Shown here piece by piece: positions 3,569-26,403 of a DNA stretch of 26,734 nt; the first letter of the stretch is position 1; each line of letters opens with the position of its first letter. A program made the translations under genes and the position numbers. A model generated the notes under the pieces. That model was not told where the DNA came from, did not search any database, and worked only from the letters and a program-made list of their open reading frames with translations. Origin of the DNA: a virus; the IMG/VR virus record IMGVR_UViG_3300037882_000341, positions 1 to 26,734 of that record. One strand, written 5' to 3'.

Positions 3569-5768
3569 ACGACCCAAGCACCGGGATACGATTTGCAGCC
3601 GCGTTGACAAGCGGGCTATCCAGCAGGCCAAGACTCAGCGCATTTGATGCGTTCTGGTAGGTATTCGACCCGCGCGACATACCGGCCGCTGCCGCCGACT
3701 CTGCCCGCTTGATGTCCGCCGCAATGCGCTGCAAGGTGCGCACCTGTTCGGGCTCAAATGCTTGTTTCAGACCAGGCAAAGTGTTGTCAACCCATCGAAC
3801 AAACTTGCTGGTCAGGTTGCCAGAGGCCGCAGCCGTCGACGCGCCTTCAGTCGTGACCATGCTTCTGAATTGGCCCAACAACTTCGGGTTGTCGCCGATC
3901 AGTCGCTTGAACGATGACACATCGTCGGCAAGGCCAGGCCGTGCGCCCCAGAATTTAGCCGCAGCCTCACCGCCCTGAACCAATGGGGCGCCGTTTCCAG
4001 CTTGTCGGAAAATGTCGGCCTGTGGGCCGGTGCGAAACTGCGCCACTTGGTCGCGCTTTGATTTCAACGCCTCAGACAGCGAGTTGGCCCAGTCAATCGG
4101 CAAGTTCTCATCTGGCAAACCATCGCCCCGGACAACCTGATTGATCTTGTCGTCAATGGCTTGCTTCATCTGGCCTAGCGCCGCCGCCGCTTGATCGTTG
4201 CCCTCACGGCCCATCATTCGCTGATTCTTGCCAAGCGAACTGCGCAGATTCTGAATCTCTCGCAAAGTGGCTTGCTTTGGCACATCAACAGCGCCCGGAG
4301 CTTCGCCCATCGCCGCATCACGCGCTGCCGAATAGCTGCGCGTCATGTCGTCATACATGGATGTCGACGGCGCCCCGAAGGCATCGTTTCTCAGCGCATT
4401 CAACAAGGTGTCAACCCCATCGTCTGCAATGTAGCCAGCCTCATACATGCGTCCGGCCATGTTGGCAGGCGACAAACCGCCGTTCTGCCGAACAAGGTTT
4501 TTCAGATCGCCCCGCAGTGCGTCGACTTCGCCTCGCCGCCCGCTTGCGTTGTTGATTGCAAGACCCCCAGCCTTACGAACAGCCTGAGACAGCGACGGAG
4601 CATCAGAGCTACCACGCGCAGCCTTCATGGCCGGCGCAACCTCAATACCTAGCTCTCTCGCCTTTGCCACAGCTTCGTCAACCGCGCCGCGCGGGCCAAA
4701 CGACCCAGGACCGAAGAACTTGCTTCTTGCTGCTGCAATCTCTTCGACTGGCACGTAGATTGATGCCGCATCAAGCGGCACAGCATTAAACAAGTCGCGC
4801 GTCCTCTGCTTAGCAGCTGCATCGCCCCGCTGTGCTTGGCGGATGATGGCCTCGCCCATGTCTTGCTGCGCGCTGCGCAGCCCAACGGGAGAAGTCGGCG
4901 CAACCCCTTCAAGCGCAGCCAAGCGCGCTGCATTCTGGCCTGCCAGCACGTCGCGCAACGAGCTCCCGCCCGCGCTGTCACTCACGACACGCTGCAAGAT
5001 TCCAGCATCAGGCGTTTGCAATGCTTGCGCAACTGTCGGTCGCGCACCAGGCACCAGTTCGTCAGCAGCATTCAACTTTGCAATGGCCGCCTCAACGGCT
5101 TTCCTGTCGCCCAGGTTGAGCGCCTGCGCCAAGTCTTGCGCCGCCTTCTTCCTGCTGCTCGCAAACGCAGACCCGACAGCAGAACCGGCCTTGCCAGCGA
5201 CTTGCAACGCACCTGGAAGCGCAGCGCCTACAGCCGCACCAAGCCCGATATCTTCAGGGCTGACAATCGCAGCCGACGTGCCGCCAGTGACGCCTCCCCC
5301 AAGTGCCCGCAGGCCAGCGCCACCTGCGCCTGTCACGCCGCCAGCACTGAAACCGGCCGTCCGCACCGCATCAAGCGCCGGCGCCACCCTTGCCGCACCC
5401 GGAAGCAAGCGCGCAGTGTTGGCAAGCACGCCACCGGCGCCGGCAGTTCCGGCAATCTCGCCAACCAACTTGCCGCCGCCATACAGCATGCCCTCTGTGT
5501 CGACGCCCATCATCTTCATGGCATCGTCCATCGCCTGCCGACGCTCTGGATTGCCGATTGACTTGGTGTTGCCCACTGCCAAGTCATACGGGGTCAACAG
5601 CGTGGCGCCAATTGACCCAGAGCCGCGCACCAAGCCAGCCGGCCCGTCTTGCAGCAGTCGCTGGATGAAAGGACGCTTGTCTTCCGCCTTTGCTGGCTTG
5701 TTTTCATCATCCCAAGTGATGCCCGCCGGCTCATCCCATGTGATCGACGCGGGGTCAATCTTTGCCAT
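3372..5768 (-). CDS. Large internal virion / DNA-ejection protein (putative)
   Basis: This 798-aa protein is the largest in the window. The N-terminus has a doubled motif, SITWDEPAGITWDDEN, the ITWDE/ITWDD repeat seen at the start of many phage internal proteins. Residues 50-220 are Gly/Ala-rich with weakly hydrophobic helices (GGGKLVGEIAGTAGAGGVLA, LGAAVGAALPGALQVAGKAG). The remaining 580 residues are helical, with several long Ala/Arg/Gln stretches. No lytic transglycosylase motif was seen. Length and composition suit a pore- or channel-forming ejection protein that is packed with DNA and delivered across the envelope. The C-terminal end faces a plus-strand ORF candidate at 3275-3568. Confidence 0.65.
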   Translation of the reverse strand: MAKIDPASITWDEPAGITWDDENKPAKAEDKRPFIQRLLQDGPAGLVRGSGSIGATLLTPYDLAVGNTKSIGNPERRQAMDDAMKMMGVDTEGMLYGGGKLVGEIAGTAGAGGVLANTARLLPGAARVAPALDAVRTAGFSAGGVTGAGGAGLRALGGGVTGGTSAAIVSPEDIGLGAAVGAALPGALQVAGKAGSAVGSAFASSRKKAAQDLAQALNLGDRKAVEAAIAKLNAADELVPGARPTVAQALQTPDAGILQRVVSDSAGGSSLRDVLAGQNAARLAALEGVAPTSPVGLRSAQQDMGEAIIRQAQRGDAAAKQRTRDLFNAVPLDAASIYVPVEEIAAARSKFFGPGSFGPRGAVDEAVAKARELGIEVAPAMKAARGSSDAPSLSQAVRKAGGLAINNASGRRGEVDALRGDLKNLVRQNGGLSPANMAGRMYEAGYIADDGVDTLLNALRNDAFGAPSTSMYDDMTRSYSAARDAAMGEAPGAVDVPKQATLREIQNLRSSLGKNQRMMGREGNDQAAAALGQMKQAIDDKINQVVRGDGLPDENLPIDWANSLSEALKSKRDQVAQFRTGPQADIFRQAGNGAPLVQGGEAAAKFWGARPGLADDVSSFKRLIGDNPKLLGQFRSMVTTEGASTAAASGNLTSKFVRWVDNTLPGLKQAFEPEQVRTLQRIAADIKRAESAAAAGMSRGSNTYQNASNALSLGLLDSPLVNAAANRIPVLGSFTGPALEGLRSTARKTKAERLAGLLGDSGLAAEQLGGLLNMPQSYALPLLGRGGLLSAPILATDQ

Positions 5769-7934: not shown

Positions 7935-8831
7935 TCAGCCGCCTTTGTTCCAGTTCTGGTACAGGTTGTATCCCGTCATCGCGCCGCCCAAGCCCGACAA
8001 CCACGGGTTGCCCTGCATCTGCTGCGAGTTTGTGCCGCCCATTCCACCCAACTGGCCCGCGCTGTTGCTGAACTGCTGCCAGTAGTTCATGGGCGTGTTC
8101 TGCACATTCGTGGCGTTTTGGATGCCCTGCTGGTTCCAGCCCATCATTTTGTCGATCAGACCAATCTGATTCTGCTGGCCCTGGTTCATCCAGTTCTGGT
8201 TGGCGTTATACACGCTCAAGTCCAGCGCATCAGACTGCAAGCCGTAGTTCCTGTCGGTGTTGAATTGCCCGCTGTACAGGTTGCCCAAAGCCCCGGCCAG
8301 CGCGTCGTTCGTGTCGCCGACTGCGATGCCTTCAGCGATACCCTGCCGGGTGCTGCCGAGCGTGCCGTTCGCAACTTGACCGCGCCGCAGACTCGGCAAG
8401 ACATTGCGCTGCAAGTTGTTGTTGACCTGCTGCGTCATCCGGTCGGCGACTTGCTGTGTATAGGGATTCTGCTGGCCAGGACCGCCACTTGGCCTGCCGC
8501 TTGCCATCGGCTGCATGGGGCTGTTCGTCGGGTTCGGGCTGTAAGGGTTCGGGCCTTGCGCGCCAGGCATGCCGGTCTGCTGCGTGGGCTGCGAGCGAGC
8601 CTGCGGCGGCGGGCTCATGTACGCATTGGGGGGCCGCTGCGGCTGGCCTGGCATTGACAAGCCCTGTTCCTGAATCCACTTCTGAGACGTGCCGGCGTCG
8701 TAACCCATGGCCTTGTCAACCTGATCGGCTCCGACCCCGTATTGCTGGGCGTAGCTGTACATGGCATATGGGTTGTTGCCGATGCCTTTATCGGTGATGA
8801 ACTGCTTGATTTGGTCGTCTGTGTATGCCAT
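7935..8831 (-). CDS. Gln/Asn/Pro-rich internal virion or ejection protein (putative)
   Basis: This 298-aa protein has GAGG eight bases before the ATG. The first 60 residues form a small helical domain (MAYTDDQIKQFITDKGIGNN, then DQVDKAMGYDAGTSQKWIQE). Residues 60-120 are Pro/Gln/Gly-rich and disordered, and the rest is Gln/Asn-rich and helical (QVADRMTQQVNNNLQRNVLP, GTLGSTRQGIAEGIAVGDTN). This style is common in phage proteins carried in the head and injected with DNA. No membrane segment or lytic motif is visible. Separated by one base from the next gene (TGA-C-ATG). Confidence 0.6.
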   Translation of the reverse strand: MAYTDDQIKQFITDKGIGNNPYAMYSYAQQYGVGADQVDKAMGYDAGTSQKWIQEQGLSMPGQPQRPPNAYMSPPPQARSQPTQQTGMPGAQGPNPYSPNPTNSPMQPMASGRPSGGPGQQNPYTQQVADRMTQQVNNNLQRNVLPSLRRGQVANGTLGSTRQGIAEGIAVGDTNDALAGALGNLYSGQFNTDRNYGLQSDALDLSVYNANQNWMNQGQQNQIGLIDKMMGWNQQGIQNATNVQNTPMNYWQQFSNSAGQLGGMGGTNSQQMQGNPWLSGLGGAMTGYNLYQNWNKGG

Positions 8832-11618: not shown

Positions 11619-12037
11619 TACTCTTCCAGCCACCCGCGGGTGCTGTCAATGTAGCGCCAGCTTGTCAACGTGCCCGCCACGTAGCCAGAAAGCGTCTTGT
11701 CAGATGCCGCGGTCTGGATAGGCGAACCGTTGCGGGCGAGCACGTTTGTCGTGCCGCCGTTCGTGAAGATGAAGGCGCACAAATCCCCGGCCGTGGGGCT
11801 GGCTGGCAGCGTCATGGTGACGGCGCCAGCATTGGTGCATAGGTTGATTTGCCCAGCAACTGCCGTGCCCGTGGTGCCGCTGTGGGTCGTGACGGCGCCA
11901 TAGAGCACCGTCCTAGACAGCGCCACAAGGCACGTTTTGATCATGCGCAGATGGTCGTCACCCTCTTTGCGCTTGTCGCTTGTCGTCGGGTTTGTTGCCA
12001 CCAATGCGGCAATCGTGGTCGCGGTTTCAAGTGCCAT
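11618..12037 (-). CDS. Short tail-fibre-like protein
   Basis: This is 139 aa. It starts MALETATTIAALVATNPTTS, then DKRKEGDDHLRMIKTCLVAL, the N-terminal pattern of many podoviral fibre proteins (LETATYI-x-LVATNPT, GDDHLRLIK). The remainder is a beta-rich Gly/Thr region (TNAGAVTMTLPASPTAGDLC, FTNGGTTNVLA) ending WRYIDSTRGWLEE. Compared with a full fibre it is short, so it may be an adaptor or attachment protein for a longer fibre, or a minimal fibre. It ends at TAATG, overlapping the nozzle gene. Confidence 0.7.
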   Translation of the reverse strand: MALETATTIAALVATNPTTSDKRKEGDDHLRMIKTCLVALSRTVLYGAVTTHSGTTGTAVAGQINLCTNAGAVTMTLPASPTAGDLCAFIFTNGGTTNVLARNGSPIQTAASDKTLSGYVAGTLTSWRYIDSTRGWLEE

Positions 12038-12612
12038 CAGATCACCCGGATGTCAGGACGGACGACAGGCATTCGATACGCCAGCCGTTCGAGGTTTTCA
12101 AGGTTCGCCACTTCGGCCCGGTATCGCTGATTCCAGGTCTGCGGATCATCGCGGGTCCAGACCGCGGCCTCTGCAACACCGGAAAACAGGTAGATGCCCG
12201 GGTAATTGGTCAGCAACCAGTTCGTGTCGCCATCGGCGCTGAAGGCCGCGAAGGCTTGGTAGTAGCTGATCGAGTAGTCGCCAGTCTTGCCAAACTCGAA
12301 GTTGTCGCCCCGTAGCGTGTAGTACAGGTGCGTTTGCGATGTCAGCAGGTCAAACTGCTGTGGCGATAGATACTGGATGACCTGATCCGCCACGGAAACA
12401 GAGATTGCCTCCAGAAACCGCGTAGGCGTTGCCAGCGTTGCGCCGGACAGGGTGCCCGTAACGGTCTGCACCATGGCGCGGCACCGAACGTCGGCGCGGA
12501 TGCGGGCCTCGGCCAATGCCACGAAGTCGCCGACAACCGAAGAAAGTGCCGAGCCGCGCTGCGACCAAGATTGGATCGCGGTCTTCAGCTCGGCAAAAGT
12601 GGAGATCGCCAT
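12037..12612 (-). CDS. Head-to-tail adaptor protein (SU10/P22-type)
   Basis: This 191-aa protein has AGGGG seven bases before the ATG. It starts with a helical segment, FAELKTAIQSWSQRGS, followed by VGDFVALAEARIRADVRCRA, the signature start of phage adaptor proteins that sit under the portal. A beta segment (TRFLEAISVSVADQVIQYLSP, trimmed) and a long C-terminal helix (RYRAEVANLENLERLAYR) follow. It would form the ring joining portal to nozzle. It overlaps the next gene (TGATG). Confidence 0.8.
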   Translation of the reverse strand: MAISTFAELKTAIQSWSQRGSALSSVVGDFVALAEARIRADVRCRAMVQTVTGTLSGATLATPTRFLEAISVSVADQVIQYLSPQQFDLLTSQTHLYYTLRGDNFEFGKTGDYSISYYQAFAAFSADGDTNWLLTNYPGIYLFSGVAEAAVWTRDDPQTWNQRYRAEVANLENLERLAYRMPVVRPDIRVI

Positions 12613-12626
12613 TCAAGCCCCTGGCA

Positions 12627-12671
12627 GGGCCTTCCGGCCCCGCATTACGCGAAGCCGGCCCCGAGCGGGGT
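12627..12671 (-). other. Structured intergenic region before the adaptor gene
   Basis: The 82-base gap between the glycosyltransferase stop and the adaptor start (12613-12694) has two perfect short stem-loops, CCCC-GCTC-GGGG at 12660-12671 and GGGCC-GGAA-GGCCC at 12627-12640, and a repeated CCGGCCCCG word at 12635-12643 and 12655-12663. Neither hairpin has a T-run, so it is not a classic terminator; RNA processing or attenuation is possible. AGGGG just before the adaptor ATG is its ribosome site. Confidence 0.45.
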
Positions 12672-12694
12672 AGTCGGCGCACGCATTATGCCAT

Positions 12695-13381
12695 CTAGTC
12701 GGTTACGTGATTGACCTGCTTCAACTGCAGGAAGAACTCGTTTGCATGGGCGGCCTGTGCGTAGCGCTCGAATGCCGGGGTGCCGGCCGTCCAGTGCAGC
12801 AGCTTTGCTTGATCGTTGGGGCCGTACTCATCGGCCAGCCAGTTCCACGCAACAGGCAGCGCACCGACAAACTCGGGCCGCATCCACGAGAAACGGTGCA
12901 GCTCGGGGCCGCTCATCTTCTCGACGTTCTCTGGCGTCATCTGCCGCCAGGCGTAGTGCCCGCAGTTGATCAGCATCACGCTTGACCAGTTCTTCCGCGG
13001 GTAGTCGTGATTGGGCGCCTCCATCTTGGTGCCAACGTACTTGCGCGGGTGCTTGGTCGTGTAGTCGTGCTGCACGACTTGCACGGCTTTGTAGTGGTCC
13101 CGCAGCGCCCACAGTTCGGACACGTCGGCCCGCATCATCATGTCCGAGCCGTCCAAGAACAGCGCCCAGCCCTTGAAGTCCTGCAAGAAGGGGATCAGGA
13201 ACCGGGTGTAAATGAATGCGTTTGTGCCGTCCCTGTGGCCTGCCGCGTAGAACGACTTGAACAAGTCAAGGTGCAGCGGAATGATGCTGACTGGACTTGA
13301 CGCGCGGTTGATCAGCGAAGACGAGAAGACGTGATACCCAGCCTCTTCGCGGGCGTCGAAGCCGGCGTAGACCGGGATCAC
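12695..13381 (-). CDS. GT8-like glycosyltransferase
   Basis: This is 228 aa from the GTG that overlaps the methyltransferase stop (GTGA); the longer frame to 13534 only overlaps that gene. It starts IPVYAGFDAREEAGYHV, the nucleotide-sugar binding strand of GT8-type (glycogenin/galactosyltransferase-like) enzymes. FLDGSDMMMRADVSEL (about 75-90) gives the acidic metal-binding motif in a Dxx-D form, and SSVMLINCGH (about 133-142) and LLHWTAGTP (about 194-202) match later donor and acceptor loops. It transfers a sugar with retention of stereochemistry if the family call holds. Proteins like this occur in many phages beside virion genes. The substrate cannot be told from the sequence. Confidence 0.75.
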   Translation of the reverse strand: MIPVYAGFDAREEAGYHVFSSSLINRASSPVSIIPLHLDLFKSFYAAGHRDGTNAFIYTRFLIPFLQDFKGWALFLDGSDMMMRADVSELWALRDHYKAVQVVQHDYTTKHPRKYVGTKMEAPNHDYPRKNWSSVMLINCGHYAWRQMTPENVEKMSGPELHRFSWMRPEFVGALPVAWNWLADEYGPNDQAKLLHWTAGTPAFERYAQAAHANEFFLQLKQVNHVTD

Positions 13382-13905
13382 TTTGGCGTCACCAGCACGT
13401 TGAACCCGCCTGGCACTCGCTGGAAGGTCTGCAGGCTGAATCGGTCCGTGAACTTGGGCAGCCACCATTCCGGCTCTTCCTGGATCAGGTGCGCATTCCG
13501 GCCGTCTGGCAGCACCTTGGATGCAGGCACGCACGACACCGTGAAGAACCCGACCCGCAGCGTTACCCGCTTCAAGTCATCCAGCACGTTGTCCAGCAAG
13601 TCAGGTTCGATGTGCTCCAGCACGTCGATGCAGGCCACCATTTCGGCGGGCTCAGGCGTGGCGCTGTGCTTTTCAATGGCCGGCTCATAGGGCACGTAGT
13701 CGAACTTGGATTCGCACAGCCTGCGGTCTGCAATGGCGTTGATCAGCGTGAGCTTTGACCCGGCGCCGTAGTCCAGCAGCCGCTTGATGCCGTGCGTATC
13801 GATGAGGCGCGCAACAATCGGCGCGTACTTGGCGGACACCACGCCGTAGCTTCCCTCATCGTGCAAGGCTTTCTGCTGGGCGCGGTAGTGGTCAGTGATC
13901 AGCAC
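13378..13905 (-). CDS. SAM-dependent class I methyltransferase
   Basis: This is about 175 aa from the GTG at 13905, which overlaps the preceding stop; a TTG at 13917 would add four residues. Motif I is RLLDYGAGS (glycine-rich SAM loop), and motif IV is the acidic CIDVLEHIEPD. These are typical of Rossmann-fold methyltransferases related to sugar, small-molecule or nucleic acid enzymes. The C-terminal half contains PEWWLPKFTDRFSLQTFQRV. It is a short single-domain protein without a DNA target-recognition domain. Lying between two glycosyltransferases, it may methylate a sugar. Overlaps the next start as GTGA. Confidence 0.75.
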   Translation of the reverse strand: MLITDHYRAQQKALHDEGSYGVVSAKYAPIVARLIDTHGIKRLLDYGAGSKLTLINAIADRRLCESKFDYVPYEPAIEKHSATPEPAEMVACIDVLEHIEPDLLDNVLDDLKRVTLRVGFFTVSCVPASKVLPDGRNAHLIQEEPEWWLPKFTDRFSLQTFQRVPGGFNVLVTPK

Positions 13906-15260
13906 GATGCAACCCAATCGCGGATGCTTTCAATGGGCCATTGATCCGTCTGCCGGAACAAGCGAACGCTGGCGTACCAAGGGATTTTTGATCCTTGCGT
14001 GCCGTAGCGCCATTGCGAAGTCTTGGGGATGCCCGCCGCGCATGGGATGCCCAGCGCACCGGCTGTATGAACCGCAGTGCTCTGCATGGCCACAACGCCG
14101 TCAAGCGAAGCAACAAGCCCGGCCATGTCGTCGTAGTCCTTTGACAGCGTGGTTGCTTGATACAAACCGATGTCGATATCGGGGTACTTGGCGCGAAACT
14201 CTGCGACCTCTGCGGCAGCGTCCTTGTATTGCAGGCACACCCAATGCGCATCTTTGGCGCGCATGATCTGCGCCAGTTCCTCTTGGCTCCATCTGCGGTG
14301 CATGGATGCCGTTTCCCGGATGCCGCCAGACCACGCAATGCCGATTGCCGGCTTGCCCTTCGACTTCCACAACGCCCGCCACATCAGCACGCGGTCAGGG
14401 TCAGCGGTCAGAAACGGCTTGCCAGGGAACGCTGCCGCGCTGTTCCTGAACAAGCCCCCGCACTGCATCGACGCAATGGAGTAGTCAACGGTCTGGTCGT
14501 CGTCAGCCCAGTTCAGCACCTTTTGGTTGCGGGTGCCGTAGACCTTGGCGCGCGGGAAAGACCGCGCAAACAGGCCTTGCAGCCTGACATCGCAATCAAT
14601 GATGACCTTGCCGGCCACCTCGATAGCATCAGGGATCATGGACGCGGCGCAGATTTCGTCGCCGATGCCCTGCTCGCCAAAGATCACCACAGTGCCGCCC
14701 GGCTCGCCTTTCCACGTCGGTTCGCCGGTGTAGTTCCAGGCGATGCGCGCGGAAGACCCGACAGACGCCTCGTACTGCTTCCACCCTTCGGCCCACTCGC
14801 CAGCGGCCAACAGCGATATGCCCAGGTTGTGCCGGGCTTTCAGGTGTTCGCGGTCAATGTCGAGCGACTTTTCGGCGTACTTGCGCGCCTTGTCGAAGTT
14901 GCCAAGCTGCAGATGCAGCGCCGCAAGGTTGTTCCACAGCATCAGCTTGGCGTCAGTGTCGCCGGCCTTGGTCTGATTCAGCGCCCGGTTGTAAGCCGCC
15001 TCGGCTTCGTCCATCCGCCACAGCGTGTCGCACACCTTACCCAGATTGGCCCAGCCGCCGCTGAATGAAGGATGTTTCGCGGTCAGCGACTTGCAGACGT
15101 GGTACGCGATGGGGGCCTGCCCTTGCTTCTCAAGCATGTAGCCGGCCAGCATCATTGCCATCGGGTCGTCGGGCTTGTCCATCATGTACGGCGTCACGAT
15201 GCGCCAGGCATCGGCGTACTTGCCCTCTTCGGCGTACTCTTTTGCTTTGTGCAGACTCAC
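13899..15260 (-). CDS. TPR-repeat glycosyltransferase (GT9/heptosyltransferase-like)
   Basis: This is about 453 aa from the GTG at 15260, which overlaps the previous stop (TAGTG) and has GGAGG eight bases upstream; the in-frame ATG at 15275 overlaps that ribosome site. Residues about 1-165 hold four to five TPR repeats (for example GGWANLGKVCDTLWRMDEAE and LWNNLAALHLQLGNFDKARK). From about 185 a glycosyltransferase fold starts with VVIFGEQGIGDEI, a GDE-type nucleotide-sugar loop, followed by GIAWSGG and GVVAMQSTAVHTAGALG, the acceptor/donor pattern of GT9-like enzymes. It probably adds a sugar to a protein or surface glycan, using the TPRs to bind the partner. It is the first of three coupled enzyme genes between capsid and adaptor. 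Substrate unknown. Confidence 0.75.
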   Translation of the reverse strand: MSLHKAKEYAEEGKYADAWRIVTPYMMDKPDDPMAMMLAGYMLEKQGQAPIAYHVCKSLTAKHPSFSGGWANLGKVCDTLWRMDEAEAAYNRALNQTKAGDTDAKLMLWNNLAALHLQLGNFDKARKYAEKSLDIDREHLKARHNLGISLLAAGEWAEGWKQYEASVGSSARIAWNYTGEPTWKGEPGGTVVIFGEQGIGDEICAASMIPDAIEVAGKVIIDCDVRLQGLFARSFPRAKVYGTRNQKVLNWADDDQTVDYSIASMQCGGLFRNSAAAFPGKPFLTADPDRVLMWRALWKSKGKPAIGIAWSGGIRETASMHRRWSQEELAQIMRAKDAHWVCLQYKDAAAEVAEFRAKYPDIDIGLYQATTLSKDYDDMAGLVASLDGVVAMQSTAVHTAGALGIPCAAGIPKTSQWRYGTQGSKIPWYASVRLFRQTDQWPIESIRDWVASC

Positions 15261-15607
15261 TAGACCGGCCTCCAAATGCGTTTTTCAGTGAGCTTCAGAT
15301 CTGGATAGTTCGTCTCAATCTCGCGGGCAACAATCGTTGCGTCCTTGCCTTCAAGGCGCGTCACGTCGATGCCCTTCTTGAGCATTTCAGCCATCACCAT
15401 TGCGGGTATGACTGCTTGCGGAAACCACTTCTCATCGGATTGCCCGATGTAGCTGCCCGGCTGCATGGCGCGCGTTTCTGCTGCAACCTTCAGGATGCCG
15501 GACACGTCCTCTGACCGATGAAAAAGCGCGGTGTCTGTCTCTTCATCGTAGTCATATTGGGTTGTGATCCCTGTCAGGGGATCGTAAGAGAAGAACTCAT
15601 AAGCCAT
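15260..15607 (-). CDS. Conserved small capsid-linked hypothetical protein
   Basis: This is 115 aa from the ATG at 15607; an in-frame TTG two codons upstream is also possible. It begins MAYEFFSYDPLTGITTQYDY, then DEETDTALFHRSEDVSGILK, and has WFPQAVIPAMVMAEMLKKGID and a C-terminal IWRPV. The same layout (YDPLTGI..., a paired-Trp or Phe segment near the middle) is common in a family of small phage proteins encoded directly after SU10- and P22-like capsid genes. Function is unknown; a head-completion or virion role is inferred from position. Its stop TAG overlaps the next GTG. Confidence 0.7.
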   Translation of the reverse strand: MAYEFFSYDPLTGITTQYDYDEETDTALFHRSEDVSGILKVAAETRAMQPGSYIGQSDEKWFPQAVIPAMVMAEMLKKGIDVTRLEGKDATIVAREIETNYPDLKLTEKRIWRPV

Positions 15608-15615
15608 AGGCAAAT

Positions 15616-15640: not shown

Positions 15641-16612
15641 TTAGGCGCAGGACACAACCTTTGCCGACGCCGCTTCGTTGCGGCAGACCAGGCCAAACTC
15701 AGTGATGAGCATGTACTTGTCGCCGTCGCCCGTCTTGGCGAGCTTTTCCATCATCGGTTTGTCAACGAATGAAACGGCCCACATATCCGGGTCCAGGCAC
15801 AGCACAACGCTTGAACGCACATGCCGGTGCAGGCGCACGGTGTGCCGCCCGTAGCTCGACACGTACAGGTTTGCCGCGTTGATGATGGACGCCTGCGCCG
15901 CCTTGTCCACGTCCACAAAGCGCGTCGCAACGCCGGTGAACTGGTCAATGGCAGCCTTCTGCAGCGGCCCCACCAGGATCTGCGTTGCCTGCCCACCAGA
16001 CGACCAAGAGCCCTGCAACGCAGAGTTCAGCGCGCCGACAGTCAGGGCGCCGGTCGTGGTGCCGTCAGTCGGCGCAGCAACCGCGCCGGAAGCAAACCCG
16101 GGAGTCGTCGCCGATGACGTGGTGGTTGCCAGCACTTCGTTCGTAGCGAGCCACGATTCAATGCTTGCCGTCGAGCGGGCCGTTGCAGAGCCGCCGGCAG
16201 ACGATGCCTGATTGCGAACGATGGCGTATTCCATCTCGTTCTTCATCTCGCGCATCTGCTTGGTCAGTTGCCGGGTCGATTCGCGCTTGCGGCCGGCCTT
16301 GGCGTACTTGTCCTGCGAACGCGAAATCAGGAAGGTCTTTCGGCTGATCTGCTGGTAGTTGCCGACGCGAACGGCGTTGACCACCGTCACGAAAGCCGCA
16401 TCGTCGCCTTCAATCTGCCGGTTCGAAGTCGGCGCCACGATGGTGTCAGTCAGCCACTCGTGGTAGCTGTTCGACGCCTCAACGCGGTCGAAGTTGGTCA
16501 GGCAGTAGGTCTCATCGGGGAACAAGTCCCAGATGACATCCTCCAGGTCTTCACGATTGCCGCCAGCCGCGCCGACGCGGTAGCTGTCAGTGGTTCCAGT
16601 CAATTGGGCCAT
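15641..16612 (-). CDS. Major capsid protein (SU10-type, HK97 fold)
   Basis: This 323-aa protein has GAGG before the ATG. It has the pattern of the SU10 major-capsid family (DUF5309): the start GNREDLEDVIWDLFPDETY, then HEWLTDTIVAP, NAVRVGNYQQISRKTFLIS, and a long helix, TRQLTKQMREMKNEMEYAI, matching the HK97-fold spine helix. The C-terminal half has LVGPLQKAAIDQF, YVSSYGRHTVRLHRHVR and WAVSFVDKPMMEKLAKTGD. Length is normal and no separate protease gene is seen. It builds the icosahedral or prolate shell and should be the most highly expressed late protein, in keeping with the hairpin just after the gene. Confidence 0.9.
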   Translation of the reverse strand: MAQLTGTTDSYRVGAAGGNREDLEDVIWDLFPDETYCLTNFDRVEASNSYHEWLTDTIVAPTSNRQIEGDDAAFVTVVNAVRVGNYQQISRKTFLISRSQDKYAKAGRKRESTRQLTKQMREMKNEMEYAIVRNQASSAGGSATARSTASIESWLATNEVLATTTSSATTPGFASGAVAAPTDGTTTGALTVGALNSALQGSWSSGGQATQILVGPLQKAAIDQFTGVATRFVDVDKAAQASIINAANLYVSSYGRHTVRLHRHVRSSVVLCLDPDMWAVSFVDKPMMEKLAKTGDGDKYMLITEFGLVCRNEAASAKVVSCA

Positions 16613-17616: not shown

Positions 17617-17895
17617 TCAGCGGGAAGCGATTGATTGTTTCATGTTTTTGATGAACGCATCTTGCTTTGCGCGGCTTTCATCGATTTTCACGTCGTCAAC
17701 CATGCGCATCAGCTCGCTGCGCACCCGTTTCAGCAGTTGCAGACTGATCGCCGCCTCGTGGTGCGTGTCCCGGTCGCCGATGGGGCTGCCCTCGATTTTC
17801 AGCACGATGCCGTCTCGGATGGAGTCAAGCGCATGACGCAACACCGGGTCATCAAGCAGGCGTTTCGCGTGGTCGCCACGTTCGCGGGGGGTCAT
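17617..17895 (-). CDS. Hypothetical helical protein upstream of the scaffold gene
   Basis: This 92-aa protein has an ATG overlapping the stop of the repeat protein (ATGA). It is almost entirely helical and highly charged, starting MTPRERGDHAKRLLDDPVL, with a VLRHALDSIRDGIVLKIEGSP segment, then LQLLKRVRSELMRMVDD and a basic end, IKNMKQSIASR. Small helical proteins with a DxxxRxAL-type start often lie near capsid genes in phages. No function can be assigned. It ends 48 bases before the scaffold start. Confidence 0.65.
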   Translation of the reverse strand: MTPRERGDHAKRLLDDPVLRHALDSIRDGIVLKIEGSPIGDRDTHHEAAISLQLLKRVRSELMRMVDDVKIDESRAKQDAFIKNMKQSIASR

Positions 17896-18818
17896 AGCAG
17901 CAGCATCACCTCTTCGTCGTCTTCATCAATCTCGGCCTCACGTCGCCGCATGGCGGTCTCAATCTCAATAGCCTGGGCGGCCTGCTCGTACAGCGCGCGG
18001 ATCTGTTGCAGCACGGCATCGGCGGCATCCTGCAGCTCGGCCGGCGCCTGGATGTCGGGCAGTTGCAGGGCTTTCTGCGCATCCGCGATGACCTTGCGAG
18101 GCTCACGCTTGCGCGCCTTCACTGCGCGCTCTACGGCCTTGTCTGCGACGGCCTGGGCTTGTTCCTTGGCCTTTTGCAGGATATCTAGAGCCTGGTCTAC
18201 CGAATCGGCGTCGAACACCTCGCCGTCAATCTCGACCTCGTACCGCTGCCGGCGCTTGCGCTTTGACCGCCCGCCGCCTGATTGCGCGGTTGACGGGCCG
18301 CCAGACCCGCTTGCAGATACGGTGTCGTTCGCATTGGTGTATGCAACCGTGCCAGACACGGTTCCAGCGGCCCCACTAGCTGAAACGCTATCGTCAGCAT
18401 TCGAATAGGCGACAGTGCCGGTAACCGTGATCGTGCCAGCGGCTGATGCGGTGTCATTGGCGTTCGTGGCCGCCAGCGAGCCAGTAACGGTCGTCGTGCC
18501 CGCTGCGCTTGAAGTGTCGTCGGCATTGGTAGTTGCCAACGCGCCAGTGACGCCAGACCCACCACCGACCGTGCCCGATGCGGCAGAGGTGTCTGCCGCG
18601 TTCGTGGTGGAACTGGTGCCAGTGACGGTTGTTGTGCCGCTGGCTGACGATGTGTCGTCGGCATTGGTTCTGGCAAGCGCGCCAGTAACCGTCGTCGTTC
18701 CGCTGGCGCTGCTGGTGTCGTTTGCGTTGGTGTACGCAACGGTTCCTGTAACACCCGCTGCCGCCGCAACAACTTCGCCCGATATTGGGGCGCTGCTGAT
18801 CGGATGGCCGGAAATCAT
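17892..18818 (-). CDS. Repeat-containing structural protein (seven TNAxDTxSASG repeats)
   Basis: This 308-aa protein is coupled to the previous gene by ATGA. Residues about 22-172 hold seven repeats of roughly 20-25 aa, consensus VTGxxAxTNAxDTSSASGTT, predicted as short beta strands with Ser/Thr-rich turns. A basic patch, RSKRKRRQR (184-192), follows, then a YEVEIDGEVFDADS segment and a long helical, Ala/Gln-rich tail with an acidic end (AEIDEDDEEVMLLL). The repeats suggest an extended fibre or surface appendage, while the helical tail may anchor it. The Ser/Thr-rich repeats might be sites of sugar attachment, given the glycosyltransferases downstream, but that is speculation. Repeat-number variation would be expected between relatives. 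Confidence 0.6.
   Translation of the reverse strand: MISGHPISSAPISGEVVAAAAGVTGTVAYTNANDTSSASGTTTVTGALARTNADDTSSASGTTTVTGTSSTTNAADTSAASGTVGGGSGVTGALATTNADDTSSAAGTTTVTGSLAATNANDTASAAGTITVTGTVAYSNADDSVSASGAAGTVSGTVAYTNANDTVSASGSGGPSTAQSGGGRSKRKRRQRYEVEIDGEVFDADSVDQALDILQKAKEQAQAVADKAVERAVKARKREPRKVIADAQKALQLPDIQAPAELQDAADAVLQQIRALYEQAAQAIEIETAMRRREAEIDEDDEEVMLLL
18303..18755 (-). repeat. Seven tandem coding repeats of about 60-75 bp
   Basis: At DNA level the array corresponds to the TNAxDTxSASG units of the repeat protein. The units differ mostly by silent or conservative changes, and one is extended by a GGGSG linker. Unit core residues: TNANDTSSASG, TNADDTSSASG, TNAADTSAASG, TNADDTSSAAG, TNANDTASAAG, SNADDSVSASG, TNANDTVSASG. 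Divergence between units shows the array is not a recent perfect duplication. Confidence 0.8.
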
Positions 18819-24199: not shown

Positions 24200-25536
24200 A
24201 CGATCCCCTTCGTGCTGTAGTTGATCCGGCCCAGCTTCTGGCGCGGCCCGCTGACCACGCTGGGAAACAGCTCTGTCAGCGCCCAGATGACCGCATCCGC
24301 CCGGTTCGGACTGCCGCCACCTAGATAGCCTACAGTCGAGAAAGCCGCTAGTTCGTCTTCCAGCGCGTTGAAGTAGCCGACATGCCGCACCTTGCCTTGC
24401 TCGTACAGGGCGCTGATCGGCTCTGCACGAACCACCTTGCCGCGCGTCGCGGTAACGGCCTTGTATGGCGCCTTGCGCTGGCCCTTGTCGCGCCTGGCGG
24501 TCTGAATCGTGGCCTCGACCATCGCGCCGCCATAATTGGTCTCGCCTACGATGCAGTCTGCCTCGTGCCGCTCATAGGCTGTAACAGCCACGCTGCCCCA
24601 GGTGGCCGGGCCGGCCTTTACGGTGCAGTCCTCAAGCACGTAGGCATTGCCATCGGTGCCAAGGCCGACAACCGCAATGCCGATGGCGTCATTGTCCGCG
24701 TTGTCGATGTCGCCTGATCCGCTTGGGTCGACTGCAACCACAATCCGCACCATGTCAGGCACAACGCCATCCATGACGCGCCACTTGTCCATGGCTTCGT
24801 CGCTGAATAGTTGGTTCGGCGTCGCGTCTGCGAAGTCTCCCTTGTAAAACCGCTTCTGAAGCCTGGCGCTCAGGCCCTGCAGGGTCTTCAGGTACTCAGG
24901 GCTAAGGTTCTCTGCGTTGTCGCCCGGGTTCATCTGGAAATGCGCGTAGTCCGTCGCATTCGCCATGGGCCGCTTGGTTTCCGGGTCGACGCCTAAGACA
25001 AACCGCTTGTAAGTCCAGTGCGCTTTGCTTGGCGGGTTGCAGTCATAGTAGGCGCGGGTCTTGAGCGTACCGGGCGCCCTGTTCTGCACTTCTGTCGGCG
25101 CCAGTTGCGCCAGCCGGGTCAGTGCCGTGTCAACAGAACTCATCGGGATTTGGCTGCACTCGTTGAAGTACAGCGTGGCGAATTCCTTGCCGAGAATCTT
25201 CTCTGTCCGCTCTTTGTCGTCCAGGCCAGCAAACCAGATTTGTGACCCGTTGGCGAACTCCGCATACCCGTCTTGAACGTGCATGTGGGATTCGACGCCC
25301 TGGAATGCCAGCCGCATCACCTTGGGAAAGGTGTCGAGCACGATTGATGCCTTCAGGTGGTTGTACCTGAATCGGAACACGGCATGCCTGCTGCTTGGGG
25401 CCTTCAGCGCTCGGAATATCGTGTTGCGCACGTGCAGGAAGGTCTTGCCGCTTCTCGACCCGCCAAACAGCATGATGTGCGTTGCATCGCCCGAGCACAC
25501 CGCCTGGGCCAGTTCCTGCCGCTCTGTCAGCTTCAC
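24196..25536 (-). CDS. terL: Terminase large subunit (packaging ATPase/nuclease)
   Basis: This is about 446 aa when started at the GTG that overlaps the terS stop (GTGA, 25536). An ATG at 25638 is possible but would overlap terS by about 100 bases. The N-terminal ATPase shows Walker A GGSRSGKT (residues about 25-32), Walker B with catalytic acid LYFNE (about 122-126) and a coupling-type segment YYDCNPPS (about 163-170). The C-terminal nuclease begins at VAVDPSGSGD (about 267-276), with the first metal-binding Asp, and ends near NRADAVIWAL, where a further metal-binding Asp is expected. It powers DNA translocation into the prohead and makes the headful or terminal cut. Length is normal. It is followed by a coupled small ORF (ATGA). 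Confidence 0.95.
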   Translation of the reverse strand: MKLTERQELAQAVCSGDATHIMLFGGSRSGKTFLHVRNTIFRALKAPSSRHAVFRFRYNHLKASIVLDTFPKVMRLAFQGVESHMHVQDGYAEFANGSQIWFAGLDDKERTEKILGKEFATLYFNECSQIPMSSVDTALTRLAQLAPTEVQNRAPGTLKTRAYYDCNPPSKAHWTYKRFVLGVDPETKRPMANATDYAHFQMNPGDNAENLSPEYLKTLQGLSARLQKRFYKGDFADATPNQLFSDEAMDKWRVMDGVVPDMVRIVVAVDPSGSGDIDNADNDAIGIAVVGLGTDGNAYVLEDCTVKAGPATWGSVAVTAYERHEADCIVGETNYGGAMVEATIQTARRDKGQRKAPYKAVTATRGKVVRAEPISALYEQGKVRHVGYFNALEDELAAFSTVGYLGGGSPNRADAVIWALTELFPSVVSGPRQKLGRINYSTKGIV

Positions 25537-25931
25537 AGCTTCTCGTCGTGCGGCGTTGCTGTAATCACCACGCGGCCCTTGTGCTCGTGCTCGATCTTGT
25601 CGCCGTAGACCTTGGGCAGCATCTTGGACAGCATCCACTTGCGAGTGTCAACCCGCAGCCGCGACCGGGCTGCAAACTCGGCATTGGCAACCGGCCCGCG
25701 CTCTGTCTCGATAACGTCGCCGCTGCTGTCGTCTGCAATCTCAATCAGTTCGTCGGCCAGCAGCTTGTAACCCGTCGCGCGCGCGTGGGCGTACTGTTGC
25801 GCAAACTCCGGGTCTGCATCTTCCCACTTCAAAACAGTGGACGGATCAATCCCAGCCTCAGCCGCAGCCTTGCGCAAGCTCAGCCCCTCGGCCAGCCGCT
25901 GCAGCACTAGATCAGCCTTAGCGCGGTCCAT
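25533..25931 (-). CDS. terS: Terminase small subunit
   Basis: This 132-aa protein starts MDRAKADLVLQ at the ATG that follows the pilin stop (TGATATG), with AAGGG upstream. A longer frame to 26036 would run deep into the pilin gene and is rejected. Residues about 8-40 (LQRLAEGLSLRKAAAEAGID, then STVLKW) form a helix-turn-helix of the kind that binds packaging initiation DNA. The rest is helical and ends with basic segments (RSRLRVDTRKWMLSKMLPKVYG, split here by context) seen in many TerS proteins of this type. It probably forms a ring that recognises phage DNA and hands it to the large subunit, whose gene overlaps its stop codon. Confidence 0.88.
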   Translation of the reverse strand: MDRAKADLVLQRLAEGLSLRKAAAEAGIDPSTVLKWEDADPEFAQQYAHARATGYKLLADELIEIADDSSGDVIETERGPVANAEFAARSRLRVDTRKWMLSKMLPKVYGDKIEHEHKGRVVITATPHDEKL

Positions 25932-25932
25932 A

Positions 25933-26403
25933 TCAGCCCTTACAAGAGCCTGGCAGGTACTTTGCCGGAATATCCGTGCCGTCAATCGTGCTGCCGCAGC
26001 GCCAGGCCCTGACATCAGACCCCGCCACCGGCTCAACAGTCAGCGCAACGTCCTGGAACGGCTTTAGCGTAACCTGCTTGCCGTCAATCGTCGGCTCACC
26101 CGTGCCCGTCACAGTCACTGCAATCGAGCCAGTCGCGCTTGTCTCGACCGATCGCACGTACTTCGTGCCAGCGCCAGCAGCCACCTCGCACCCCCAGCCC
26201 CCGGCCAAAGGCAGCGTCGATGCCGTCTGCACGGTCTCGGTGATAGCCGTTCGACAGGCCGATGCGGCCAGCAGCACTTCGGACACCTTAGCCTTGAGCG
26301 TGTAGTCCCGATAGGCCGGCAGCGCAACGGCGGCAAGAATGCCGATGATGGCGACCACGAGCATCAATTCTATGAGCGTAAAACCGTCTTGAATGCGTTT
26401 CAT
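25933..26403 (-). CDS. pilA-like: Type IV major pilin (PilA-like) encoded in the phage packaging operon
   Basis: This 156-aa protein has a class III (prepilin) signal: leader MKRIQDG, cleavage Gly7|Phe8, and mature start [20 protein letters not shown] with the conserved Glu at mature position 5. The hydrophobic alpha-1 helix runs to about residue 30, followed by PAYRDYT. Four cysteines (50, 72, 136, 154) suggest two disulfides; the last pair closes a C-terminal D-loop that includes [10 protein letters not shown], typical of proteobacterial major pilins. Length matches a complete pilin, with no frameshift. AAAGGG lies five bases before the ATG. The gene is on the same strand as its neighbours, 32 bases after the nuclease and one base before the small terminase (TGA-T-ATG), so it is probably co-transcribed with late genes. 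Identity as a pilin is secure; its role in a phage is unknown. It could be incorporated into, or compete with, host pili. Confidence 0.93.

Follow-up and report, generated by a model that had tools for sequence, protein, structure and literature searches.

The flagellin O-glycosyltransferase of Caulobacter, FlmG, joins a TPR domain to a GT-B domain; flagellins are bound through the TPR domain, without which the GT-B domain is inactive (PMC7591256). Among phages, glycans occur on capsid and tail-tube proteins of mycobacteriophages (Freeman et al., 2023, as cited in PMC12619734), and the Caulobacter jumbo phages CcrColossus and CcrSC carry adjacent genes for a GT8 glycosyltransferase and a methyltransferase. 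Virion glycosylation itself is thereby already known. A search of the literature, mostly of openly readable papers, found no description of a module such as the one reported here, in which a TPR-bearing glycosyltransferase (TPR-GT), a methyltransferase (MT) and a GT8-like glycosyltransferase are encoded between the capsid and adaptor genes of a phage. On balance, we read it as a virion-protein glycosylation system carried by uncultured podoviruses of an SU10/LUZ24-like clade, in which the TPR-GT would start a glycan that the other two enzymes extend or cap.

The window, meaning the whole stretch of DNA analysed, is an IMG/VR virus record of 26,734 bases with its head-tail block on the minus strand. 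Read along that strand, the gene for an SU10-type major capsid protein (MCP; 15641-16612; PF17236, 7.7e-74; phrog_1328) is followed by that for the small protein p117 (15260-15613; phrog_3982, 5.2e-5), which sits between the MCP and the TPR-GT, and then by the three enzymes (12695-15260). These are the TPR-GT, of 453 aa (13899-15260; TPR_12, 4.8e-11; phrog_36377), the MT, of 175 aa (13378-13905), and the GT8-like GT-A glycosyltransferase, of class GT8a and 228 aa (12695-13381; phrog_28018, 4.5e-32; PF01501 weak). An SU10-type head-tail adaptor (12037-12612, minus strand; PF24175, 4.9e-22) forms the right border of the MCP-adaptor interval. The start/stop overlaps given in a preliminary description were confirmed from the sequence: the GTG start of the TPR-GT (15260) uses the G of the p117 stop codon TAG (15262-15260) in TAGTG, the MT start GTG at 13905 lies in a 7-nt overlap, GTGCTGA, across the TPR-GT stop, and the GT8 start GTG at 13381 lies within the MT stop in GTGA. 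All three GTG starts were picked by overlap, the mechanical open reading frames being longer. Overlapping genes are ordinary in phage operons; the feature of this locus that goes beyond chance is its conserved gene neighbourhood and not the overlaps.

Between the GT8-like gene and the adaptor start lies a gap of 82 bp (12613-12694), which had been called structured. GC-rich hairpins are present, but the predicted RNA fold does not stand out (z -1.39; 15 of 200 shuffles were equally good) and a search of the gap for an intrinsic terminator found none; on that search and the weak fold, the reading of the gap as a terminator was set aside. The hairpin-rich gap partly recurs at 8685-8768 of the locus L003 (fold z -2.29), although the hairpins of the two gaps could not be aligned in register. 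The window and L003 are diverged phages that have such a gap in common and are also close in GT8 and adaptor.

The question of how widely the module is found was addressed through the MCP. A search of IMG/VR gave 125 confirmed relatives, the best 80 of which were kept as loci; the interval from MCP to adaptor was complete in 52 of these, and the other 28 gave none. Within the 52 complete intervals (from the best 80 of 125 MCP relatives), p117 is present in all 52, the TPR-GT in 47, the MT in 43, a GT8-family gene in 39 and the full enzyme set in 38; when this sample of the best 80 is reduced at 97% MCP identity, the TPR-GT is found in 40 of 42 and the complete set in 34 of 42. The five intervals in which the TPR-GT is absent (L137, L138, L140, L142, and L144) belong to phages with MCPs 36% identical to that of the window. 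When all loci gathered are considered, 84 non-redundant intervals show the order TPR-GT, MT, GT8a in 33 cases, TPR-GT, GT8b, MT in 18 and TPR-GT, GT8a, MT in 11, with 13 other arrangements containing a TPR-GT and nine intervals without one; in six of the 84 the TPR-GT is accompanied by neither MT nor GT8. This larger set includes loci found via GT8 or TPR-GT, together with seven hand-picked phage records, and is thus partly ascertained by the genes in question, so that only the 52-interval figures are free of that bias. In one relative, L139, the MCP match is split in two parts about 700 bases apart (3982-5657), as if interrupted by an insertion.

The seven hand-picked records come from eight that were opened, the eighth (L150) having no adaptor match, and the TPR-GT is absent from all seven in which both interval ends were found. 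The comparison with relatives devoid of the module that the preliminary description had called for is available in LUZ24, where the MCP is followed by a single small p117-family gene and then the adaptor, but most MCP relatives do carry the TPR-GT. phiM5 has a GDSL/SGNH hydrolase in the interval, recorded in its particle proteome, and two Manatee Spring genomes have an annotated glycosyltransferase there, Anp1-like below cut-off in one of them. Three TPR-GT queries against 50,697 phage records gave 3, 7 and 2 matches. Among the records opened, annotated MCP and tail genes flank TPR, methyltransferase and GT8-like genes only in the environmental assembly MW202512, a placement that follows the record's own annotation since its MCP gave no match to the model used; searches of the 50,697 records turned up no cultured phage with the complete module. 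Other intervals encode methyltransferases, of the FkbM type and others (L211, L011), a protein matching a PHROG glycosyltransferase family (L197) or a 2OG-Fe(II) oxygenase (L137), and this variety marks the MCP-adaptor interval as a gathering place for sugar-acting genes. A further interval family of 15 members had been considered GT29-like (E 0.031, below cut-off); its representative has no similarity to the GT29 protein of the Stenotrophomonas phage DLP6, in which MT, GT8, GT29 and GT1-type genes are grouped, and we therefore leave the family unnamed. Some carriers may be temperate, since seven of 24 relative records encode a phage integrase.

The preliminary description had taken the three genes for a transferred cassette within the virion operon. 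Composition gives no sign of foreign origin, GC being about 60% across the window, and the divergence of the genes points elsewhere. Pairwise protein distances were compared with those of the MCP over 63 common loci, giving Spearman coefficients of 0.85 for the TPR-GT, 0.64 for p117 and 0.33 for the adaptor; further coefficients were 0.65 for the scaffold (59 loci), 0.82 for the portal (33 loci) and 0.27 for a tail-side protein of 518 aa (33 loci). Cutting MCP and TPR-GT to 105 columns each lowered their coefficient to a mean of 0.73 (20 draws), and restricting the comparison to pairs with adaptor identity above 30% (531 of 1953) gave 0.89 for MCP and TPR-GT versus 0.73 for MCP and adaptor; these controls for length and saturation reduce the contrast and do not remove it. 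Since the portal tracks the MCP about equally (0.82, n=33), the correlation may reflect simple co-inheritance of the head block. In FastTree analyses, the only tree method used, 39 phage TPR-GTs form a single clan relative to 30 bacterial homologues (support 100), and the GT8a tree, with other phages and bacteria included, requires 13 changes of the label that marks this clade. Of 325 pairs with an MCP identity of at least 60%, 140 have different GT8 classes or gene orders. As judged from these distances and trees, the outer enzymes are exchanged among close relatives and the TPR-GT is co-inherited with the MCP.

The window itself is a mosaic. Its MCP (83%), p117 (73%), TPR-GT (59-68%) and MT (71-74%) are nearest to L066 and L153, and its GT8 (74%) and adaptor (49%) are nearest to L003; L066 has the other GT8 class, its best match to the window GT8 being 31%, and the switch between the two sets of nearest relatives lies close to the junction of MT and GT8 at 13381. 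On interval content, distances and trees as well as this comparison, TPR-GT and MT are residents of the phage clade that travel with the MCP, and GT8 alone of the three looks recently exchanged, jointly with the tail-side block. A single recent transfer of all three genes is ruled out by interval content, co-divergence with the MCP, the TPR-GT clan and the mosaic of nearest relatives; the data are better explained by a conserved, clade-wide, capsid-linked module than by a transferred cassette.

The enzyme classes assigned earlier are borne out by profile matches and models. In an AlphaFold model of the TPR-GT (56-row alignment; pLDDT 96.2), roughly five helical hairpins precede a GT-B-like domain of GT9/GT41-like fold, so that, by profiles and model alike, an N-terminal TPR domain and a C-terminal GT-B domain lie within one chain, as in FlmG, with which it was compared by published description (PMC7591256). 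Foldseek placed SPY and OGT, which are TPR-bearing protein O-glycosyltransferases, at the top. In VIA-align comparisons the model matched the GT9 structure 3tov (Z 17.9, 3.2 Å, 254 aligned), OGT 2vsy (Z 17.3, 9.8 Å, 364 aligned, covering both domains), heptosyltransferase II (Z 16.8), WaaC (Z 16.5) and TibC (Z 15.7); the GT-B, GT9-like fold is thus shared with TibC and the GT9 heptosyltransferases (Z 15.7-17.9), but TibC and WaaC align only from residue 174 or 189 on, the TPR part being extra in the TPR-GT. PF01075 (Glyco_transf_9) was found in 14 of 56 family members (best 1.7e-6), the window's TPR-GT having no match at E 0.01, and TPR_2 was found in all 56. The GT-B domain superposes on GT9 structures and has a conserved N-terminal Asp, D201, invariant in 56 of 56 members, a putative counterpart of the catalytic Asp13 of WaaC, as read only from the start of the aligned range. 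We propose that the TPR-GT is a putative initiating protein O-glycosyltransferase, and the OGT/SPY-like architecture supports the earlier suggestion of a protein partner for the TPR domain.

The GT8-like protein (AlphaFold pLDDT 95.0) is modelled with a GT8-type GT-A fold with an Asp motif and a C-terminal His, matching 3tzt (Z 17.6), GlyE (17.2), LgtC (17.1) and WbbM (17.0). It shares this fold with GlyE, LgtC and WbbM (Z 17.0-17.2) but is shorter, at 228 aa, and its DGSD is one residue longer than DxD; DGSD stands in place of the DGDM of others, and the longer motif is common to several relatives. Pfam Glyco_transf_8 scored 12.7 bits on it, below the cut-off of 24.3, and it is therefore called GT8-like and not a Pfam member. 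Across 51 GT8a rows D80 and H196 are invariant and D77 is conserved in at least 90%; we presume D77 and D80 to form the GT8 Asp motif and H196 to be its C-terminal His. The MT, a class I SAM enzyme, matches the PHROG family phrog_24759, 'methyltransferase' (2.9e-21), and falls below the Pfam cut-off for PF13489 (E 0.0017; 18.5 bits against 27); D45, G47, D94 and a DGRNAH run are invariant over 49 rows. We propose these two as a putative second-sugar transferase and a putative glycan cap enzyme. With modelled folds that match known enzymes and active-site residues conserved in the alignments, the catalytic motifs are intact. The genes do lie amid virion genes, and the products might be catalytically dead structural or assembly factors; the conserved metal, catalytic and SAM motifs and the exchange of whole enzymes make this very improbable. 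We give equally little credence to hypermodification of phage DNA: certain phage glycosyltransferases target DNA (as cited in a passage of PMC12619734), but the genes occupy a late structural operon and none of the structure matches listed is a DNA glycosyltransferase.

A more serious competitor, which we nevertheless consider unlikely, is that the enzymes alter the LPS core or O-antigen of the host late in infection and so block re-adsorption of progeny or superinfection. The GT9 fold is that of LPS heptosyltransferases, which are among the closest rigid-body matches of the GT domain as well as protein glycosyltransferases; GT8 includes the LPS enzymes LgtC and WbbM; and, in the part of a review consulted, polymorphic glycosyltransferase clusters of cyanophages are assigned to diversification of outer polysaccharides (PMC7824862). 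Against this stand the TPR domain, found by TPR_2 in every family member, within a SPY/OGT-like architecture, the location beside the MCP and the co-divergence with it, and three genes that include no flippase or membrane protein. No transmembrane-like stretch was found in the three enzymes (top 19-residue hydropathy 1.52, 1.32 and 0.95). A Gtr-type seroconversion cassette consists of a membrane flippase and a transferase (GtrA/GtrB); the module genes, with the hydropathy maxima just given, matched neither family. As acceptor, a virion protein is favoured over the host surface: the module is conserved along with the head genes, its proteins are predicted to be soluble, and the architecture of the TPR-GT resembles that of OGT and SPY.

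The MCP is the leading candidate among virion proteins, by adjacency, co-divergence and abundance. Its Ser/Thr content averages 0.190 in phages with the module (n=75) and 0.169 in those that lack it (n=9), a small difference, and no clear difference between carriers and non-carriers was found in MCP, p117 or adaptor, so an acceptor signature was not found. It is improbable, in our judgement, that the acceptor is instead another phage protein, such as p117, a tail protein, a repeat protein or a pilin. Between portal and scaffold the window encodes a 308-aa protein (17892-18818, minus strand) with Ser/Thr-rich tandem repeats of the NANDTSSASGTTTVTG type, with similar proteins in L067 and L012; it came from a listing of Ser/Thr-rich open reading frames, out-of-frame ones included, for which the threshold was 35 per 100 residues. 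A type IV pilin gene (25936-26403, minus strand; PF00114, 1.1e-16; N_methyl, 6.8e-9) sits immediately upstream of the gene for the small terminase (25533-25931); the pilin had no match in the 50,697 phage records at 1e-5, though PHROG pilin families exist, and a pilin 53% identical to it is encoded on an unrelated GT8-bearing viral contig (L037:4018-4485) near a match to the PHROG alpha-2,3-sialyltransferase family. The NANDTSSASG-type repeats, the pilin in the window, and bacterial clusters in which module families adjoin T2SSE/GAF genes (L236, L218) would suit such acceptors, but the module is general, whereas N_methyl occurs in only two of 43 relative records and full-length close matches to the repeat protein only in L067 and L012; neither was retained as a general acceptor.

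Bacterial homologues offer a further comparison. Phage head or tail families were found in none of 77 bacterial TPR-GT loci, which were chosen by TPR-GT and not by MCP, and prophages were accordingly set aside as evidence of the host. MT- and GT8-family genes occur together in nine of the 77 (L219, L223, L228, L236, L237, L249, L265, L266, and L274), each with more than one TPR-GT match, the MT match of L228 being weak (5e-9); a flagellin-like open reading frame lies nearby in just six of the 77. L236 and L218 adjoin T2SSE/GAF/HD genes, and L249 and L223 hold FkbM methyltransferases. The loci L218, L219, L236, L237, L249 and L274 are bacterial chromosomal clusters, mostly from betaproteobacterial assemblies, with several TPR-GTs and GT8, mostly with a methyltransferase.

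Taken together, we envisage that late in infection the TPR domain would bind one of the phage's structural proteins, the MCP from the adjoining gene being the likeliest, and that the GT-B domain would place a first sugar on Ser/Thr from a host nucleotide sugar, for which the GT9 fold makes ADP-heptose a plausible guess. Epimerase and NTP_transferase matches were found in none of 24 relative records, so the donor sugars probably come from the host. The GT8-like enzyme would attach a second sugar and the MT methylate the glycan; the short capped glycan proposed earlier is the likely product. FlmG acts in the cytoplasm on an abundant self-assembling protein (PMC7591256), and the TPR-GT may be likened to it on that point, given its putative acceptor; unlike FlmG, it is a phage gene beside a capsid gene, with donor and acceptor both putative. 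Glycans on virion proteins are common to the mycobacteriophage case, there reported and here predicted from genes, but that case concerns another phage group, and the citing passage makes no mention of a TPR-GT9/GT8/MT set (PMC12619734). The GT8 and MT of CcrColossus and CcrSC are of the same families as those of the module; their late glycan cluster, however, follows the tail genes and is not beside the MCP, and includes a gene annotated as a sialyltransferase, and the GT9 gene next to GT8-MT in CcrColossus (PF01075, 4.3e-8; 276 aa) has no profile similarity to the TPR-GT.

A conserved, MCP-linked initiator with swapped extenders would give particles a variable outer sugar, by which the particle might be shielded or its recognition altered. 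We hold only tentatively the bolder proposal of a clade-wide, FlmG-like machine for capsid O-glycosylation, in which a capsid-matched TPR reader and fast-exchanged extenders (GT8a, GT8b, methyltransferases and other glycosyltransferases) would produce a lineage-specific particle 'serotype'. If the glycosylation reading is true, virion glycosylation would be a conserved trait of a mainly metagenomic phage clade and not a rare moron, a separable TPR reader could explain how a phage enzyme selects its own capsid, and the swapping of extenders would be the phage equivalent of surface-antigen variation; the outer steps can be tested through the GT8-MT relatives that cultured Caulobacter phages carry.
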